DNA from: a virus
Virus record (IMG/VR): IMGVR_UViG_3300030451_002636
Location: 1 to 26,173 of that record
Length of the DNA stretch: 26,173 nucleotides
Reading direction: 5' to 3' (one strand)
Shown here: piece by piece, positions 3,468 through 25,619 of the stretch
Layout: each line of letters begins with the position of its first letter
Position numbering within the stretch: position 1 is the stretch's first letter
Position numbers and translations under genes: made by a program
The notes under the pieces: generated by a model
What the model was told of the DNA's origin: nothing
Database searches by the model: none
The model's input: the letters and a program-made list of their open reading frames with translations, nothing else

Positions 3468-3974
3468 TTAAGTTCTAAATTGCAAGATATCCTCTGGGTC
3501 TTTTACCACAGCAATTATCTCGTCCTCGTTAAGTATCCTCACTTCTCCACCTTCTATCCCAAATCTAGAACCGGCGTAACGACCAAATATAATCCAATCA
3601 TTTACTTTACACCAAGGTCCGTTTGGAAACCTTTCTTTATCTGTATAACAATCTGGTCCTTGTTTAAGAACCAAACCTGTGACTGTTGTATAGCCACGTT
3701 CTTGCATTGTTTCATCTGTTAATATTACACCACCTTTTGTTTTACCTTGTCCTCTGTATGGTAAAACTAACATGCGCCAACCTGTTGGATCGGGCAACCG
3801 TTCTAATACTTTTTCTGTGGGTAAATGTTCTATGTCTTTTGTAGCATCTTCTTGTATTTTTTTAAGAAATTTATTTTCTTTTTCTTCTGCTACTTTATTA
3901 TTTTCATCAGCTTCAACAGCTAAATCTTTTTCTTCTAACGCAAATCTACGTTTTGGTAGTTCTTTCTCCGTCAT
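3468..3974 (-). CDS. GroES-type (Cpn10) co-chaperonin
   Basis: Residues about 64-160 of this 168-residue protein form a GroES-like domain. GWRMLVLPYRG is the first strand. The mobile loop GKTKGGVILTDET (about 77-89) carries the hydrophobic triplet V-I-L that in GroES docks to GroEL, and VNDWIIFGRYAG plus the closing EDEIIAVV follow. The first 60 residues are a highly charged extension absent from E. coli GroES. No GroEL is encoded here, so it probably works with host GroEL, as T4 gp31 does, to fold capsid protein. Its place just upstream of the scaffold and capsid genes fits. GAGG precedes the ATG, and it overlaps the preceding gene by 29 bp. Confidence 0.88.
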   Translation of the reverse strand: MTEKELPKRRFALEEKDLAVEADENNKVAEEKENKFLKKIQEDATKDIEHLPTEKVLERLPDPTGWRMLVLPYRGQGKTKGGVILTDETMQERGYTTVTGLVLKQGPDCYTDKERFPNGPWCKVNDWIIFGRYAGSRFGIEGGEVRILNEDEIIAVVKDPEDILQFRT

Positions 3975-4158
3975 TGTTTTCCTCGTCTTTCTGCAGGTCT
4001 TGAATCTCCTGTTCCATTATTGCATAGGCAGTAAACTGTCCTACGGTTTTGTTATATTCATCCCAACTGGGTAATCCAGTTGCAACGACTTCTTTCAACT
4101 CCTCTTTTCGCAATCTAATCTTTTTCAAGATTATGTAGATTGCCGTTTCATCTTGCAT
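3946..4158 (-). CDS. Small conserved phage protein of unknown function
   Basis: A 70-residue, mostly helical and charged protein beginning MQDETAIYIILKKIRLRKEE. Its ATG forms a TAATG overlap with the stop of the preceding gene, and its 3' end overlaps the co-chaperonin by 29 bp, so translation is probably coupled. Similar short proteins occur between portal and capsid genes of marine phages. I see no catalytic motif, signal or membrane segment. Confidence 0.65.
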   Translation of the reverse strand: MQDETAIYIILKKIRLRKEELKEVVATGLPSWDEYNKTVGQFTAYAIMEQEIQDLQKDEENNDGERTTKT

Positions 4159-4349
4159 TAAGTTCTTTTCTTTTTCTTCTTTGTAGGTTTTTTAGCCGTT
4201 TTAGCAGATTCTTTTAATGCTTTGTCTGTTACTGTGCCTTTACCTGGTCTGCTTTTGCCAGATTTTTTAGCTTTGTTCATGTAGTAATACAAACCTTTTT
4301 TAGCAATTCTGCCATCTTTTGTTTTATGATATCCTTTAGGTACACTCAT
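4158..4349 (-). CDS. Lysine-rich small phage protein
   Basis: The 63-residue protein starts MSVPKGYHKTKDGRIAKKG and has the segment YYYMNKAKKSGKSRPGKGTV. It ends in a dense run of lysines (about 50-62) and is extremely basic. It may bind nucleic acid or package DNA in the virion, but this rests only on charge. AAAGG precedes the ATG. It overlaps its upstream neighbour by 4 bp and its downstream neighbour by 1 bp. Confidence 0.65.
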   Translation of the reverse strand: MSVPKGYHKTKDGRIAKKGLYYYMNKAKKSGKSRPGKGTVTDKALKESAKTAKKPTKKKKKRT

Positions 4350-4528
4350 TTTTTACCTTTGCCTCCTTTTTTATACATCATGTTTGGCTTCATCATAGTT
4401 CTACCCATTGTTCCGCCACCCATCATTTTTTTAAGTTTGCCACCTTTCTTTTTGTAGCCCATCTTGTTTCTAACTTTAGTTGGTAACTTTGCTAGACCAG
4501 GATTTTTTTTCTTATCTACAGTTTTCAT
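4346..4528 (-). CDS. Basic Gly/Met/Lys-rich small protein
   Basis: A 60-residue low-complexity protein with KKKGGKLKKMMGGG near the middle and YKKGGKGKK at the end. The KGG motif recurs in several other proteins of this operon. AAGGGG precedes the ATG at 4528, and the stop overlaps the next start. The composition suggests a nucleic-acid- or membrane-binding peptide packed in the virion, but no function can be assigned. Confidence 0.6.
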   Translation of the reverse strand: MKTVDKKKNPGLAKLPTKVRNKMGYKKKGGKLKKMMGGGTMGRTMMKPNMMYKKGGKGKK

Positions 4529-4530
4529 AG

Positions 4531-4926
4531 TTATTTCCCCTTTTTAAAAAAATTCATTGCTACAGGTCCAGCTTTAACCCCAAAGCTTACTGAGCATGCT
4601 AAATATAAAAGATGTTTATAATAATCAGGTAAAGAATGCAAGGCTTCAAATCCTGCTTTTATGTGTGGTGTCCAACTAGGCACAAAGACTGCTACGGCTG
4701 GCGCCAATAGGCAAATTAAAATTAGTTCGTCTTTCCACGAACCTTTCATTTGATCCACAGCTGCAGCTTCCCATTTAATTTTACCTGCTGCTATGTCTTC
4801 TTGTTTCTTTTTTTCTGCCTTAATTTTTGCAATCTTGACTTCGCCATTTAACTTTTTAGTCTCTACGAAGCCTTTGATGCCATCAACGGCAACTCCTAAT
4901 AATGGTTTTGCTAATAACTGCCACAT
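4531..4926 (-). CDS. Holin-like membrane protein (GTA-type 3TM family)
   Basis: The 131-residue protein has a charged helical N-terminal half (KIAKIKAEKKKQ near 32-43), the motif GSWKDELILICLLAPAVAVF at about 62-81, and a second hydrophobic segment near 103-122. The order of helical region, WKDE, membrane segment and short loop ending in a PSW/P motif matches the gene-transfer-agent 3-TM holin family as I know it. It would permeabilise the inner membrane for endolysin release. Its position among structural genes is unusual for a lysis gene, and no endolysin was recognised in the window. Confidence 0.7.
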   Translation of the reverse strand: MWQLLAKPLLGVAVDGIKGFVETKKLNGEVKIAKIKAEKKKQEDIAAGKIKWEAAAVDQMKGSWKDELILICLLAPAVAVFVPSWTPHIKAGFEALHSLPDYYKHLLYLACSVSFGVKAGPVAMNFFKKGK

Positions 4927-13901: not shown

Positions 13902-15007
13902 TATTCTTCAAATGCAAATTCAGTAATTGTAGGAACGCTAAGACCTAAAGCAGCTGCAATTTTTGGATATTTTTTTATTAAAGTTGGAGCATATTTAGCT
14001 ATACCAGCTTTTGCAAATTTAAGACCTGAAGGAAGTTTTAAAAAAGGTAATTCACCTGTTATTTCTGCAATTTCCACAGGGTTTAAATTATATGTTTGTT
14101 GTGTAAATAATGGATCAACAACAGGTATACCTTCAATGTCTTCGTACGAAGATTCTGGCATTAACATCCCTTCTGCTAAAGGTTCCACAAGGTCTTGTAA
14201 TACTCCACCACTTATGGGTTGGTATGTTGGATCATAATCATATTTTGATCCAGTTAATCTTTTAAATTCGTCACTTATATCTTTTTTCTCGCTGTAACCT
14301 AACGATTCCCACTGATCTGGTGCTGGTGGCGAAATACCCTGGCTTAATAATTGGTCATGAAACGCACCCATTTCATTTGTATAATTTATAATATCTAAAT
14401 AACCACGTGGTAAAACTCCACCTGTCATTGATTCTGTATCAAAAGGGTAAAGAATATTACTCCCTAAATTAAACAATGTGTCACCTAAAAAAGCCCCACT
14501 TCCTAAAAAAGAACGTGTTGCTTCTTTTGAAACATCAGACATGTAATCTGAAAGATTATCTGGCATACCAGTTTCTTCTCCGTAAGGATAACCATAAAAC
14601 ATTGATGTAGGAGGTTCGAGGGCCTCGAGCCCCGCATCACTCATACCAAATTTGGGATTATATTTTGCAAATTGATTTTGTCTTGCTCGGTATAAATTGT
14701 CTGCGTAATTATAAACTCTAGGATCGTAATCTAAAACACCACCAGGTCGTTCTTCTCTTAATTTTAAATCATAGTCATTTATAAAATTTATAAAGTCATC
14801 TTTTGCTACATCTAAATCACGACCAGTATTTGCATAAATCATTTGACCTGCATCAGATGCTCGAAAATCTGGACTATTAAAAAATTGTTCGCGTGCTGCC
14901 ATTTCATCACGGAAAATTCTATCAGGATAAAAACTGCTTGTTGGTTCGAAAGGAACATCCATGTAATTAAAATCCGGTGCTGGTTTGTCTCTAATCGTTA
15001 CTTCCAT
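13901..15007 (-). CDS. Phage protein of unknown function, hydrophobic-basic C-terminus
   Basis: This 368-residue protein is acidic and Tyr/Pro-rich over most of its length. It has QFFNSPDFRASDAGQMIYAN near 41-60 and repeated aromatic-proline patches. The last 60 residues change character: ELPFLKLPSGLKFAKAGIAK followed by a run of lysines and a short hydrophobic stretch. Such a tail could touch membrane. It follows the large terminase directly, sharing TAATG, and has a GGAGGAGG ribosome site. No known domain was recognised. Confidence 0.65.
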   Translation of the reverse strand: MEVTIRDKPAPDFNYMDVPFEPTSSFYPDRIFRDEMAAREQFFNSPDFRASDAGQMIYANTGRDLDVAKDDFINFINDYDLKLREERPGGVLDYDPRVYNYADNLYRARQNQFAKYNPKFGMSDAGLEALEPPTSMFYGYPYGEETGMPDNLSDYMSDVSKEATRSFLGSGAFLGDTLFNLGSNILYPFDTESMTGGVLPRGYLDIINYTNEMGAFHDQLLSQGISPPAPDQWESLGYSEKKDISDEFKRLTGSKYDYDPTYQPISGGVLQDLVEPLAEGMLMPESSYEDIEGIPVVDPLFTQQTYNLNPVEIAEITGELPFLKLPSGLKFAKAGIAKYAPTLIKKYPKIAAALGLSVPTITEFAFEE

Positions 15008-16467
15008 TAATAATAATCCCTCCTCCTGGTATTATCTGTCGGCTCGTCTTCAAAGTCATCTTCTAACGTAACATGATAACCTTGTCTATATTTCATTAAG
15101 GCTTGCGTGGTAGAATCCACGTAGTCGTCATTATCGCCAAAAGGGAATGCTGCGCATTCTTCTATGACCTCTTCGGCAAAAGTCTTTTTTGGTGCCCAAA
15201 TTGCACCAGCTTCAAAAAGCGGTGCTACACTATTAACCCTTGTATGCTTATCATTTCCTTTAGACGGTGTAAAGTTAATTACAGGTATACCCATTTTTTG
15301 TAATTCGTGTGTTAAAGGCATACCAGACGCTTTTGCTTCTATGATTACCATTTCTGGTTCCCAATACCTGTATTGTTCCATGGCCTCGCGTTTTAATTCA
15401 GGAAAATTCCAACGATCACGTTTTGCATCAAGTAGTATCAACGCTTTGCCTTTGCCGTTGTCAGGATCAAATACACCCCACGTTGTTATGGCAGAAAAAT
15501 CTGCCGTTTCTTTTTTGCTAAATGCTGTGTCGTATGATTGTATAATAAACTCTAATTGTGGTATGTCTTCTGGTTCCCATTCTTGCCACCATTCACGCTT
15601 TATAAGTGCACCTTCTTCGGATGTAGGTTGTTGCATCCATTGTGCTTGCCACTTGGTTAGAGGTATAGATGCCTTGACTGATTGTAAACCCTCCATAGAC
15701 CAAAAATTACCCCACATAGGTTTGTCGTTTATAATTGCAGGAAACTCTACTACTTCCCATTGGTCTGCCATTGAGTCTTTACCCTGGGCCTCGAGCAGTT
15801 TACCAGTAAGATCTTTTGTTGACCAACGTGTCATGACTACAACGATCGAGCCACCAGGTTGTAGACGCTGACGTGGACCAGATGTGTACCACTCGTAATG
15901 TGATTCTAAAACGGCTGGCGAGAGCGCATCCTGCTCAGAATGAGGATCGTCAATAATAAGTAAATCGGCACCACGACCAGTAATAGCCCCACCAACACCA
16001 GCAGCAAAATACTCACCCCCATGATTTGACTCCCAACGTCCAGCAGCTTTGGAGTCAGCTGCAAGTGTAACTTCTGGAAATACTTTTTCATATTCTGATG
16101 ATTCTATCATGTTTTTGGCTTTACGTCCAAAACGGATTGCTAGTTCACCTGTGTGCGTGGTTTGTATGAGCTTGGCTTTTGGATGACGGCCCATATAAAA
16201 CGCAGGAAACAGGTTAGATGCAAATTCTGACTTTGTGTGTCTTGGTGGCATATTTACAATCAAACGTTTTAGCTCACCGTTTGCAATACGATTTAGTTTT
16301 TCTGCATATATTTTGTGGTGCTTGCCTTCTACAAAATCTGGCCAAACTGTTTTTACAAATTTTAAAAAATCACCTTGTGCTTCTTCACGCTTTTTGTCCA
16401 TAGCGTTTTTAAGCAATAGTTTAAGTGTATTGGTATCTAATGATTCTAGTTTAGAAACGTTTTCCAT
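15007..16467 (-). CDS. terL: Terminase large subunit
   Basis: The DNA-packaging motor. Numbered from the ATG (486 residues), the ATPase shows a Walker A-like loop MPPRHTKSEF (about 73-82), Walker B LLIIDDPH (about 169-176) and the coupling motif MTRWS (about 212). The RNase-H-fold nuclease has YDTAFSKKETADFS (Asp near 312), VIIEAKASG (Glu near 376) and an Asp pair in DDYVDS (near 447-450). An in-frame TTG lies 27 bp upstream at 16494. I prefer the ATG at 16467 because a promoter -10 overlaps that TTG, putting the transcript start downstream of it. No clear Shine-Dalgarno precedes the ATG. First gene of the long leftward operon. Confidence 0.93.
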   Translation of the reverse strand: MENVSKLESLDTNTLKLLLKNAMDKKREEAQGDFLKFVKTVWPDFVEGKHHKIYAEKLNRIANGELKRLIVNMPPRHTKSEFASNLFPAFYMGRHPKAKLIQTTHTGELAIRFGRKAKNMIESSEYEKVFPEVTLAADSKAAGRWESNHGGEYFAAGVGGAITGRGADLLIIDDPHSEQDALSPAVLESHYEWYTSGPRQRLQPGGSIVVVMTRWSTKDLTGKLLEAQGKDSMADQWEVVEFPAIINDKPMWGNFWSMEGLQSVKASIPLTKWQAQWMQQPTSEEGALIKREWWQEWEPEDIPQLEFIIQSYDTAFSKKETADFSAITTWGVFDPDNGKGKALILLDAKRDRWNFPELKREAMEQYRYWEPEMVIIEAKASGMPLTHELQKMGIPVINFTPSKGNDKHTRVNSVAPLFEAGAIWAPKKTFAEEVIEECAAFPFGDNDDYVDSTTQALMKYRQGYHVTLEDDFEDEPTDNTRRRDYY

Positions 16468-16493
16468 TTTGTAAAAATTTTTTTGGGACTCCA

Positions 16494-16522
16494 ATTATAA
16501 CGTTTTTGTGTATGATTGTCAC
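16494..16522 (-). promoter_or_regulatory. Strong sigma70-type promoter of the morphogenesis operon
   Basis: On the minus strand GTGACA (16517-16522) and a perfect TATAAT (16494-16499) are separated by 17 bp. Transcription would start near 16487, about 20 nt before the terminase ATG. This is one of the best promoter matches in the window and the likely start of the 16-kb leftward transcript. Confidence 0.75.
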
Positions 16523-16650: not shown

Positions 16651-16671
16651 GTTATCCACAGGTTATCCACA
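16640..16671 (+). repeat. 32-bp repeat copy 1 with two DnaA boxes
   Basis: TTATCCACA, the consensus DnaA box, occurs at 16652-16660 and again at 16663-16671, one helical turn apart in the same orientation. The boxes belong to a 32-bp segment that recurs at 18074-18105 with a single base difference. The gene at 16744 begins about 70 bp to the right. Confidence 0.75.
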
Positions 16672-16743
16672 GTGTTGCACAAATACAACAACAAATAATA
16701 TTTATATATGCTAGTATGTAGACAGAAAGCGAGGATATATATT

Positions 16744-17031
16744 ATGCCTAATGATTTAATAAAAACACAAAGCATTAACAATGTTAACATAACACCTATT
16801 ATGAAAGAAGTAATAGAGTATTCTAAAGACCAAGCAAGTGTTGGTGATTTAGAAGAACTAATTAGTAAAGTTCCAGCAAAAGACAGCATGGATTGGAAAC
16901 TAATTAGTGGAGTATTAATGAACTCACTTGTTGAGTGGGTTGCAGAAGATAAGGAGGAACGCATTGACCTGATTAGAAGATTACAAGGAGATGTTGGATA
17001 TATCCTTAAACGCATGGGTTTGACTATGTAA
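16744..17031 (+). CDS. 95-residue protein of unknown function
   Basis: The ATG at 16744 follows GCGAGGA, and the frame begins MPNDLIKTQSINNVNITPI. The product is helical and acidic, with VIEYSKDQASVGDLEELISK near 21-40 and a charged C-terminus EDKEERIDLIRRLQGDVG. No known domain was recognised. It is the only plus-strand gene between two large leftward blocks. It diverges from the terminase, lies beside a DnaA-box pair and has its own terminator, so it is an independent transcription unit. A role in replication or control is suggested by position only. Its promoter is not clear; a TTGCAC at 16675 lacks a good -10. Confidence 0.8.
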   Translation: MPNDLIKTQSINNVNITPIMKEVIEYSKDQASVGDLEELISKVPAKDSMDWKLISGVLMNSLVEWVAEDKEERIDLIRRLQGDVGYILKRMGLTM

Positions 17032-17058
17032 TATATATCCTTTTATAATAGTCATAAG

Positions 17059-17084
17059 AGGGCGACATCAGTCGCCCTTTTTTT
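17059..17084 (+). terminator. Rho-independent terminator
   Basis: GGGCGAC and GTCGCCC pair perfectly around the loop ATCA, with an extra A-T pair outside, and are followed by seven T residues. It lies 28 bp after the plus-strand gene's stop codon. Confidence 0.92.
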
Positions 17085-17163
17085 ATGTCCAATCGTCAGC
17101 GTCAGCAACTCTGGATGACCGGCCCGGGAACAACTTACAATATATCGTGATTAAATTTGGTTA

Positions 17164-17183
17164 GGAGTTTGCTTGGGAGTTTG
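17164..17183 (+). repeat. GGAGTTT pair 1
   Basis: Two GGAGTTTG units start 12 bp apart (17164 and 17176). This is the first of five such pairs between here and 18544. Confidence 0.6.
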
Positions 17184-17250
17184 TGAGCTTGGGGGACTAG
17201 AACGGACTTCTGGCCAACCGAGTAAGGACTAGACCCCATTACCATCTCTT

Positions 17251-17290
17251 TTGACCCAAGAGCCGAATATCTCCGTTTATCTTGGGTCAA
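17251..17290. repeat. Perfect 11-bp inverted repeat
   Basis: TTGACCCAAGA (17251-17261) and TCTTGGGTCAA (17280-17290) are exact reverse complements around an 18-bp spacer. No T-run follows, so an operator or structured RNA is more likely than a terminator. Confidence 0.6.
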
Positions 17291-17437
17291 TGTTTACTTG
17301 GCCTCTCGCCTATCGGGTCACTCCAAGTCATATGGTTAACTTTTATTTTTATCTCGGTTAATGAGTGTTAGGTTAACCTAGTTAATGTTATCTGGTGTTT
17401 ATACTCTCCAGCCCTTTCAGGTACGGAATCCGATTGA

Positions 17438-17575
17438 TTAACTAAACATACTATACATCTTTCCAAACCATGACACAATAGGTTTATTACTTTTCTTGTG
17501 GATAAGTTTCCAAGTACCTTTGTGCCACAAATATGTATATGTATAATCTTTAGTCCATTTATTCCAACGAATCAT
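17438..17575 (-). CDS. 45-residue Trp/Lys/Tyr-rich protein
   Basis: The ATG at 17575 follows AAAGGA and lies about 20 nt downstream of a strong promoter (17603-17631). The peptide begins MIRWNKWTKDYTYTYLWHKG and is basic with five tryptophans; it has no membrane segment. Promoter, short leader and ribosome site together make it a credible gene, although it resembles nothing I know. A DnaA-box match at 17497-17505 falls inside it and encodes Leu-Ile-His-Lys, so that box may be coincidental. Confidence 0.65.
   Translation of the reverse strand: MIRWNKWTKDYTYTYLWHKGTWKLIHKKSNKPIVSWFGKMYSMFS
17497..17505 (-). promoter_or_regulatory. DnaA box inside a small gene
   Basis: A perfect TTATCCACA on the minus strand. 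It lies in the coding sequence of the 45-residue protein but inside the same 1.8-kb region as five other perfect boxes. Confidence 0.45.
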
Positions 17576-17602
17576 AGTCAATCCTTTCTCTTTCTATCTC
17601 AT

Positions 17603-17631
17603 CTTATATCACGAATCCAATGTGATGACAA
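17603..17631 (-). promoter_or_regulatory. Promoter of the 45-residue gene
   Basis: TTGTCA (17626-17631) and TATAAG (17603-17608) on the minus strand each match the sigma70 consensus at five of six positions and are 17 bp apart. The predicted start leaves a leader of about 20 nt. Confidence 0.65.
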
Positions 17632-17726
17632 GTGCGAAGTAATAAAACTTACCACAGGAACTCCCGGCGCGCCCGGTGCGTGGACACCAGAGCCCATCAC
17701 CTTTTATATGGTGTAGCAAACCTTTA

Positions 17727-17744
17727 GGAGTTTGCAGGAGTTTG
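17727..17744 (+). repeat. GGAGTTT pair 2
   Basis: Two GGAGTTTG units starting 10 bp apart, just beyond the 3' end of the 29-residue membrane peptide gene. Confidence 0.6.
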
Positions 17745-17751
17745 CAGCAGC

Positions 17752-17841
17752 TCAAAAATATTGAAGCAGCAGCCACAGAGCTGCAGCACCAGCTGCCAAC
17801 TTTAAAGATCCGAGGACCAAAATTGCTAGGAAATGTAACAT
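17752..17841 (-). CDS. 29-residue hydrophobic membrane peptide
   Basis: GAAGG with 5-nt spacing precedes the ATG at 17841, and a promoter lies at 17874-17902. The peptide starts MLHFLAILVLGSLKLAAGAA and is hydrophobic nearly throughout, long enough to span a membrane once. It could be a small toxin-like or lysis-modulating membrane peptide, but that is inference from hydrophobicity. Being so short, it needs confirmation; the promoter plus ribosome site are the main support. Confidence 0.5.
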   Translation of the reverse strand: MLHFLAILVLGSLKLAAGAAALWLLLQYF

Positions 17842-17864
17842 TTTTACCTTCTACTTTCTATATC

Positions 17865-17902
17865 CTTCCTGGTCATATAGCTCCTTCAGGCCAGGAAGTC
17901 AA
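17865..17902 (-). promoter_or_regulatory. Promoter with bracketing inverted repeat
   Basis: TTGACT (17897-17902) and TATATG (17874-17879) on the minus strand are 17 bp apart. An exact 8-bp inverted repeat, CTTCCTGG (17865-17872) and CCAGGAAG (17891-17898), brackets the -10 and touches the -35, as a repressor operator would. Confidence 0.5.
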
Positions 17903-18028
17903 GAACCCGGGCATAAAAAATCGCAGAAATCCAACGAAAAATAATTTGCATCTCCCGGGAACTGGCGGGCGCCCGGTGCCTGTAGGGCTCAAATGGGCGT
18001 TTCAATTTATCTAGGTTTTTAGCCATTT

Positions 18029-18143
18029 ATGGGAGTTTCGGAGTTTGCGGTACGTCAGTCAGGGCTGCACGGGCCCGGGCGCGAGTTATCCACAGGTTAT
18101 CCACAACAAAGGTTATAGATAACCCATGGGAGTTTCGGAGTTT
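18029..18143. other. Putative origin core: 18-bp repeats flanking two DnaA boxes
   Basis: An exact 18-bp direct repeat, ATGGGAGTTTCGGAGTTT, lies at 18029-18046 and 18126-18143. Between them are a GC-rich GGGCCCGGGCGCGAG, two perfect TTATCCACA boxes (18086-18094 and 18097-18105) and the palindrome GGTTATAGATAACC (18111-18124). Segment 18074-18105 repeats 16640-16671 with one mismatch. Phased DnaA boxes flanked by iterons are typical of replication origins of phages and plasmids using host DnaA. No initiator gene was recognised in the window. Confidence 0.6.
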
Positions 18144-18351
18144 AAGCCTTCTTAAATATCCCCTCGTACATCTTGTCTAATGTACTTCTGTTATCATCGA
18201 GTATTGCCTCTTGATTCTTTCTCATTGTAGGTACAATACTATCATAATGATTTGCTATTCTATTTAACACGGTGTTGTTATCTTCTAACGCTTCGTGTAT
18301 TCTATTTAATGCATCTACTACTGCATTGTTACTATCTTCTGGTAATACCAT
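18142..18351 (-). CDS. 69-residue coiled-coil-like protein
   Basis: The frame starts MVLPEDSNNAVVDALNRIHE at 18351 after AAAGGAG and has its own strong promoter. The product is acidic and entirely helical in appearance (EALEDNNTVLNRIANHYDSI), suggesting an oligomeric coiled coil. No known family was recognised. Its stop codon overlaps the second GGAGTTT repeat of the origin-like module, so it borders that region directly. Confidence 0.75.
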   Translation of the reverse strand: MVLPEDSNNAVVDALNRIHEALEDNNTVLNRIANHYDSIVPTMRKNQEAILDDNRSTLDKMYEGIFKKA

Positions 18352-18380
18352 TTCTACTCCTTTGTTATATTTCTAATTAT

Positions 18381-18409
18381 ATTATATAATATCTGACACA
18401 CAAAAGCAA
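18381..18409 (-). promoter_or_regulatory. Promoter of the 69-residue gene
   Basis: On the minus strand TTGCTT (18404-18409) and a perfect TATAAT (18381-18386) are 17 bp apart. The predicted start gives a leader of about 23 nt containing AAAGGAG. Confidence 0.65.
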
Positions 18410-18427
18410 CCATTACAAACCATTACA

Positions 18428-18436
18428 TGTGGATAA
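18428..18436 (-). promoter_or_regulatory. Single DnaA box upstream of a promoter
   Basis: A perfect TTATCCACA on the minus strand, 19 bp upstream of the -35 of the 69-residue gene. DnaA bound here could contact polymerase, or the box may belong to the origin region. Confidence 0.55.
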
Positions 18437-19491: not shown

Positions 19492-19686
19492 TTGTGTCAC
19501 CACTTGTGTCACCAGTTAATCTTTTATCTACCATGCTAAAACCCGCAGTATAGTTGAATTTTTACTCATTTTATTTTCTAAAAAACAAAAAAGTGCCTTG
19601 CGTCGTCTAGAGTAGTGACACATAGGTGCCACAAGATAAGTCATTGATTTATATAGCGTAATCATCATTTGTGTCACTGTGGCACC
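19492..19686. promoter_or_regulatory. Cluster of six GTGNCAC operator-like sites
   Basis: The palindromic core GTG-T/G-CAC, usually within TTGTG(T/G)CAC(C/T), occurs six times. Copies start at 19492 and 19504 (tandem, 12-bp period), about 19614 and 19625 (minus orientation), and about 19669 and 19678. The last four form two pairs arranged in opposite orientation. They lie upstream of the small terminase and downstream of the LexA-like gene, which suggests a regulator controlling packaging genes. Confidence 0.55.
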
Positions 19687-19782
19687 ACTTTTGATCCCGG
19701 TAACAAAAAAATAATTTAAAAACAGTAAATATATCACTATACATGCCACATTACAAAATATAAATTGACCGATTTCTGCCAT
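19528..19782 (-). CDS. Possible 84-residue membrane protein
   Basis: An open frame starts MAEIGQFIFCNVACIVIYLL with AAGG upstream and overlaps the LexA-like gene by 32 bp. The N-terminus would cross the membrane once (about 8-28). The rest is Cys/Arg-containing and lies over the GTGNCAC repeats, which argues against a conserved protein. It may be a real small gene or simply an open frame in a regulatory region. Confidence 0.3.
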   Translation of the reverse strand: MAEIGQFIFCNVACIVIYLLFLNYFFVTGIKSGATVTQMMITLYKSMTYLVAPMCHYSRRRKALFCFLENKMSKNSTILRVLAW

Positions 19783-24799: not shown

Positions 24800-25438
24800 T
24801 TATTTCTCCAATGATTCACTTTTTTCACTTCTATCAGGCATATTTATAACGTTTGATTCTTCTTTAAACTTTATTTTTGCATTAAATGCAATCGTAATAC
24901 GTTGTCTGTTACTTCTGTTTATGTCTACGTCATGTAAAAGATAAGATGGAAAGCACAATATATCACCATCACTTGGTTGATGTGCTATCATGTTAGCGTG
25001 TGGCATGTGATTAGGTATCATGCGATACATTTGTTCATGTGTTGCAAATCTAATTAAACCTGTGTTAGATCCTTGTACATAATACACACCAGATAGATCT
25101 GCATCTGCACGGTAGTGTGAATGAAATATGTTGTTGCTGCCTGTTTCGTTTACGTTTGTCCAATATGTTATACTTGCATCCATGGGTTTTTTAGGAAAGT
25201 AATGATCCATGTAAGCTGACATAATCATACCAATTGGTTTCATTAATTCTTTTTCGCATTTGTATTTAAACATGCTACGCCAACAACCAGGATTAGTTCC
25301 TATCATACCACCAGGATTGTCACCTCGTTCTTTTTCTATTTCTGTTATTAATAAATTATTTAAGTTTTCAAAATTGTTATACCTTTTGTAAAACAATCTC
25401 GTGTCTTGTACTGGTATTTTACTTATTACTTCGCTCAT
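24800..25438 (-). CDS. 2OG-Fe(II) oxygenase
   Basis: From the ATG at 25438, preceded by CGGAG at good spacing, the product has 212 residues. An upstream GTG at 25465 was rejected. Family features are WTNVNETGSNNIFHSHYR (His106, His108), DLSGVYYVQG, GDILCFPSYLLHDVDINRSN (His169) and RQRITIAFN (Arg180). They match the iron- and 2-oxoglutarate-binding elements of the 2OG-FeII_Oxy_5 family. Which of His106/His108 and the Asp residues after them bind iron is uncertain. It probably hydroxylates a protein or small molecule; the substrate is unknown. Confidence 0.85.
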   Translation of the reverse strand: MSEVISKIPVQDTRLFYKRYNNFENLNNLLITEIEKERGDNPGGMIGTNPGCWRSMFKYKCEKELMKPIGMIMSAYMDHYFPKKPMDASITYWTNVNETGSNNIFHSHYRADADLSGVYYVQGSNTGLIRFATHEQMYRMIPNHMPHANMIAHQPSDGDILCFPSYLLHDVDINRSNRQRITIAFNAKIKFKEESNVINMPDRSEKSESLEK

Positions 25439-25619
25439 ATTTCTCCGTTGCGCATTGTGGACCACATAAAAATATTATTCTATATTTTTGATCCGGATTA
25501 AATTGTTTATCCAACCAATATAAAAGTCTATCAAACCATTGTTTGCATACATAACATTTATATTGTGGTCCTTCGCGGACACAGCTTTTATTATACTCCA
25601 CATAAACCTTCACATTCAT
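25419..25619 (-). CDS. Four-cysteine zinc-ribbon-like protein
   Basis: The 66 residues contain YKCYVCKQWF (CxxC) and FLCGPQCATEKY (CxxxC) about 30 residues apart, a probable zinc site. The ATG at 25619 lacks a good ribosome site. A GTG at 25601 has GAAGG five bases upstream and would give 60 residues without losing the cysteines. It overlaps both neighbours. It may bind nucleic acid or a partner enzyme; nothing in the sequence decides. Confidence 0.7.
   Translation of the reverse strand: MNVKVYVEYNKSCVREGPQYKCYVCKQWFDRLLYWLDKQFNPDQKYRIIFLCGPQCATEKYERSNK

Follow-up and report, generated by a model that had tools for sequence, protein, structure and literature searches.

A conserved array of tandem site pairs at the head of terS co-varies with a stand-alone LexA-type protein in marine phages

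Introduction

The cosB site of phage lambda lies beside terS and consists of three elements with an IHF site between the first two, in the order R3-IHF-R2-R1 (R3-I1-R2-R1), the middle element R2 being inverted; its reader, the lambda TerS gpNu1, binds through a winged-helix domain (PMC9026076). The Rpp proteins of PICIs pair with lambda TerS and switch cosB specificity (PMC6739421). For many pac phages, specific DNA binding by TerS is hard to demonstrate (PMC9611059). In the LexA repressor of E. coli, A42 is a base-contacting residue (contact list in PMC3091678). Phages not rarely carry stand-alone LexA-type domains.

Here we describe an array of short sites at the head of terS in a viral sequence of 26,173 nucleotides (IMG/VR record IMGVR_UViG_3300030451_002636; the whole stretch is called the window below), and a neighbouring gene for a LexA-type protein of 78 residues. 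The literature searched, which left most subscription papers outside its reach, held no account of such a protein or array.

Results

The array and its neighbours in the window

The window contains 12 copies of GTGNCAC, a number reached in none of 100 shuffles (shuffle mean 3.9). Six of the 12 lie within 192 bp (19494-19685), where about 0.03 would be expected, and all the copies that an earlier note on this sequence had listed are present (Table 1). The remaining six are close to chance level, and a GTGNCAC regulon spanning the window was discarded on that ground. The array is composed of three tandem pairs, with sites 8 bp apart in pair A, 11 bp in pair B and 12 bp in pair C. Judged from the centre base, pair B is oriented opposite to A and C. 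The earlier division into two tandem and four opposed sites has to be redrawn: all three pairs are tandem, and it is pair B as a whole that is inverted relative to the other two. The start of terS is placed at 19534, because most of the variation over the N-terminal peptide MVDxR is synonymous and falls on third positions. With this start pair C covers terS codons 7-15 and is not intergenic, so that the location formerly given to all six sites, between the LexA-like gene and terS, holds for pairs A and B.

Table 1. Features of the array locus and other annotated regions of the window (offsets are relative to the terS start)
Feature	Position	Strand	Remarks
Terminase large subunit (TerL)	15007-16494	-	PHROG 38, 6e-107
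DnaA-box cluster	16652-18436		candidate replication origin
Terminase small subunit (TerS), 201 aa	18929-19534	-	Pfam Terminase_2 5.5e-9; PHROG 51
Site C2, GTGTCAC	19494-19500	+	+34; within terS codons
Site C1, GTGTCAC	19506-19512	+	+22; within terS codons
84-aa ORF	19528-19782	-	overlaps the array
Conserved TCTAGACGACGC element	19600-19611	-	adjoins pair B; missing from one GGTATT lineage
Site B2	19615-19621	-	-87; inverted
Site B1	19626-19632	-	-98; inverted relative to pairs A and C
IHF-consensus match AATCAATGACTTA	19637-19649	-	between pairs A and B
Site A2, GTGTCAC	19671-19677	+	-143
Site A1, GTGGCAC	19679-19685	+	-151
Conserved ACCGGGA element	19695-19701	-	about 10 bp upstream of pair A; in both word lineages
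Stand-alone LexA-type winged-helix protein, 78 aa	19751-19987	-	proposed array reader (Pfam, AF2, co-variation)
2OG-Fe(II) oxygenase	24800-25465	-	Pfam 1.5e-16

The neighbouring protein is of the LexA type, as the earlier note had it. It matches Pfam LexA_DNA_bind at 8e-12 and the PDB sequences 1lea and 3jso, and its AF2 model (pLDDT 85.6) has a predicted fold close to that of LexA in 3jso and 3jsp (TM 0.83-0.84). The C-terminal autoprotease/dimerisation domain is absent, the ORF ending at residue 78, directly after the wing.

Conservation of the array and replacement of its word

Eighty relatives were gathered via TerS for a comparison of offsets. All six offsets of Table 1 are kept wherever the DNA is present, except in a few genomes with degenerate sites and in L078 and L079, which bears out the expectation that the motif would be conserved upstream of terS. 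In every one of the 43 scored genomes A2 and B1 are 45 bp apart, and many relatives have a seventh site at about -215, at the end of the LexA-like gene. A scan with the pattern of pair A returned many unrelated contigs among the matches listed.

The two exceptional genomes have GTGNCAC at none of these offsets. Instead, GGTATT (AATACC on the other strand) occupies all three pair positions, and over pair C their terS encodes IANTIANTK where GTGNCAC phages have SGATSGATN. L078 also has eleven copies of AAACTCCC downstream of terS (3657-4882). Further scans brought the collection to 103 distinct LexA-like/TerS pairs; the word is GGTATT in 57 of them and GTGNCAC in 46. With the words aligned in register, spacing is nearly equal in the two lineages (A2-B1 43-45 bp). 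GGTATT is not palindromic, and the genomes that retain all pairs display the orientations A--, B++, C-- without exception (22/22). GGTATT genomes possess an additional direct pair, GGTATTGGCAAGGTATTATG, that runs up to the start codon of the LexA-like gene, as well as one more site at the end of that gene; in GTGNCAC records the B-type pair, and with it the array, is found once per record (11/11).

Of 43 GTGNCAC relatives, 29 have a perfect IHF consensus, and the GGTATT lineage lacks the consensus. The 84-aa ORF that overlaps the array is open in 43/43 scored GTGNCAC genomes, against 5/47 GGTATT genomes, and the other two frames of the region contain several stops; its coding status is uncertain because third codon positions are not more variable. 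Openness in so few GGTATT genomes also means that the overlapping ORF does not account for the array geometry, and it was rejected as the cause of the rigid spacing.

Pelagiphages of the HTVC023P type (L137-L216) have a conserved array of their own upstream of a distant TerS. It shares with the window family pairs 8 and 11 bp apart, a distance of 43-45 bp between them and the position upstream of terS, and differs in having a third word (CTAGGAAA/CTGGGAAA/CTAAGAAA) in nearly always one orientation. The two arrays may be homologous. A profile search of the whole genome of HTVC023P, a cultured pelagiphage, detected no LexA-like ORF, and a Pfam search of ten of its neighbour proteins gave no convincing HTH reader. 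The feature common to both arrays is therefore terS. An RNA hairpin was considered as the function of the array, since the inverted pairs A and B could pair with each other; it is at odds with pair C and with the HTVC023P words, which mostly run in the same direction.

Co-variation of the word with the LexA-like protein

Distribution of the two words requires a single change on the tree of the LexA-like protein (branch SH-aLRT 99), against four on the TerS tree and seven on that of an overlapping 131-aa gene. A split of the words into single clades is rejected for the 131-aa gene by the AU test (p=1e-53) and is not rejected for TerS (p=0.30), which leaves the TerS tree unable to settle the matter by itself. 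The TerS clade in which both words occur (44 GTGNCAC and 5 GGTATT genomes) provides a sharper test set. Within this mixed clade none of the 126 TerS columns separates the words, against 12 columns of the LexA-like protein, which correspond to E. coli LexA positions 11, 12, 35, 47, 51, 55, 57, 58, 61, 63, 65 and 67; the wing accounts for half of these. Across all 103 pairs, the position equivalent to E. coli LexA 42 predicts the word at 97% (H vs N). This difference between the two proteins in the mixed clade makes it very probable, as far as sequence comparison can tell, that the array is read by the 78-aa LexA-like protein rather than by TerS. This conclusion is limited by the fact that the main change of word happened just once on the LexA-like tree, and by the physical linkage between the array and the gene.

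Contig ends in the array zone

Left ends of contigs accumulate in the array zone in the GTGNCAC group (8 vs about 1.7 expected, p=4e-4, with zone edges chosen post hoc) and in the HTVC023P group (8 vs 1.3 expected, p=6e-5). In GTGNCAC genomes these ends are scattered from -127 to +27, and right ends show no matching enrichment in the zone, so that a two-sided fixed end is not seen. The pile-up favours a packaging site at a suggestive level, because the GGTATT group lacks it, the GTGNCAC and GGTATT lineages pooled give p=0.03, and the limits of the zone were set with the data in view; it is small, and may reflect assembly breakage in AT-rich DNA.

Discussion

The array may well be a packaging-initiation site, similar to pac or cosB, that is served by a separate reader protein. 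With the adjacent LexA-like protein bound to the six sites, the three pairs would make up a nucleoprotein site of fixed layout where terS begins. The LexA-like domain would dock on pair A and, across a bend (IHF-like in the GTGNCAC lineage), on pair B, and also on pair C, and would pass the DNA to TerS and TerL for the first cut; packaging would run in the direction of terS, terL and the head genes. On this model the recognition of DNA falls to a small, separate winged-helix protein instead of TerS. While the array, its geometry and the co-variation of word and protein are observed, the binding, the contact with TerS and the role in packaging are what we infer from them.

The order and orientation of the array (A-IHF-B-C) match those of lambda cosB, with the IHF consensus confined to the GTGNCAC lineage. 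Both sites comprise three elements by terS, with an IHF site (here a consensus match) between the first two and the middle element inverted, and a winged-helix reader domain is common to lambda and to the arrangement proposed here. Unlike in lambda, the elements of the array are tandem pairs, the last of them lies within terS codons, the word tracks a separate LexA-like protein, and no cosN has been identified at the array. Compared with headful pac sites, the location in or near terS fits, and the contig-end pile-up is one-sided, weak and present in two of three groups. In its construction the array resembles a cosB or pac site whose reader is an outside protein, and it can be called a putative member of either class at most. 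The PICI Rpp proteins offer a parallel, since in both cases the specificity of packaging would depend on a small winged-helix protein distinct from TerS that acts at a site beside its own gene; the Rpp proteins differ in resembling MerR and TerS, in having a dimerisation half and in being encoded by satellites, whereas the protein described here is of the LexA type and encoded by the phage. It is conceivable, with somewhat less confidence than we place in the packaging site as such, that packaging recognition has shifted from TerS to a stand-alone LexA-type domain, and that natural change of domain and array together alters specificity while TerS stays unchanged.

A tentative alternative is that the LexA-like protein is an ordinary phage transcription regulator and the array an operator with multiple sites, through which the protein represses terS and the downstream genes or sets their timing, with self-regulation in the GGTATT lineage and a repression loop as the source of the rigid spacing. 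Co-variation of the word with the protein is equally expected of an operator, the stand-alone LexA-type proteins of other phages are annotated as regulators, and the extra GGTATT pair at the LexA-like start codon looks like autoregulation; the site at the gene end also points to regulation. Promoter-like matches, however, are not above shuffles (35 vs 24; 37 vs 42), with no position common to both lineages, and an operator leaves the lambda cosB order unexplained. The placement of pair C within terS codons also speaks against it, as does HTVC023P, with its terS array of similar geometry and no detectable LexA-like gene. In layout and in linkage to terS, the likeness to a packaging-initiation site is no weaker than that to an operator.

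The comparison with bacterial LexA bears on the same question. The fold of the DNA-binding domain is common to both proteins (TM 0.83), and the recognition helix and wing hold several of the word-separating positions of the phage protein. In contrast to bacterial LexA, the phage protein is without the protease/dimerisation half, its putative sites are GTGNCAC or GGTATT in tandem pairs, and the GTGNCAC lineage has one array per record and no sign of an SOS regulon. SOS LexA acts on a dyad operator upstream of several DNA-repair genes; what is found here is tandem pairs, once per record in 11/11 GTGNCAC records. The array does not qualify as a conventional set of LexA (SOS) operators, and the phage protein lies outside the SOS LexA family. 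The operator for the LexA-like protein that the earlier note had proposed thus stands in part: the domain is of the LexA type, the sites are conserved and they co-vary with this protein and not with TerS, but the protease half and a spaced dyad are missing, there is one GTGNCAC array per record, and no promoter stands out.

Binding of the array by TerS, on the model of lambda or SPP1, with the LexA-like gene as a linked passenger, is improbable. The array does remain at terS across lineages, with or without the LexA-like gene, and a single switch on the TerS tree is compatible with the AU test. TerS also has a predicted HTH of its own, in a DNA-binding domain resembling that of SF6 TerS 4zc3 (prob 1.00 and TMt 0.88, but E 0.38). 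Against this reading stand the columns of the mixed clade, where TerS contributes none of the separating positions, and the HTH residues of the L078 TerS, all of which occur in GTGNCAC phages too.

The array could also be taken for a replication origin whose iterons the LexA-like protein reads. The iteron-like tandem words, the IHF-like site, the AT-rich surroundings and the weak similarity of the protein to replication-initiator families would agree with an origin, but this reading is very unlikely because a better candidate, a cluster of six perfect DnaA boxes TTATCCACA (0.39 expected), sits between terS and terL, while GC skew has no turn at the array and the LexA-like protein has no second domain.

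The boxes of this candidate origin lie in and around the noncoding stretch between the two terminase genes; two pairs 11 bp apart fall within near-identical repeats of 32 nt, and GGAGTTT words are repeated there as well. In other phages (L106-L115) a LexA-like gene is located directly ahead of terL, and three of them (L108, L109 and L113) have four perfect DnaA boxes upstream of a different terS. These boxes were rejected as a further array word, since the same boxes cluster elsewhere in the window family and are likely to mark an origin.

The array is carried by a large group of marine phages; the cultured phages closest to them infect SAR11, bacteria that are abundant in the sea. With more than 100 natural combinations of a LexA-type domain and a site array, divided between two clearly distinct words, the group offers ready material for testing how this fold recognises DNA. 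If the array is a packaging site, these phages split DNA recognition from TerS, and the fixed array would give a direct handle on where and how packaging starts.
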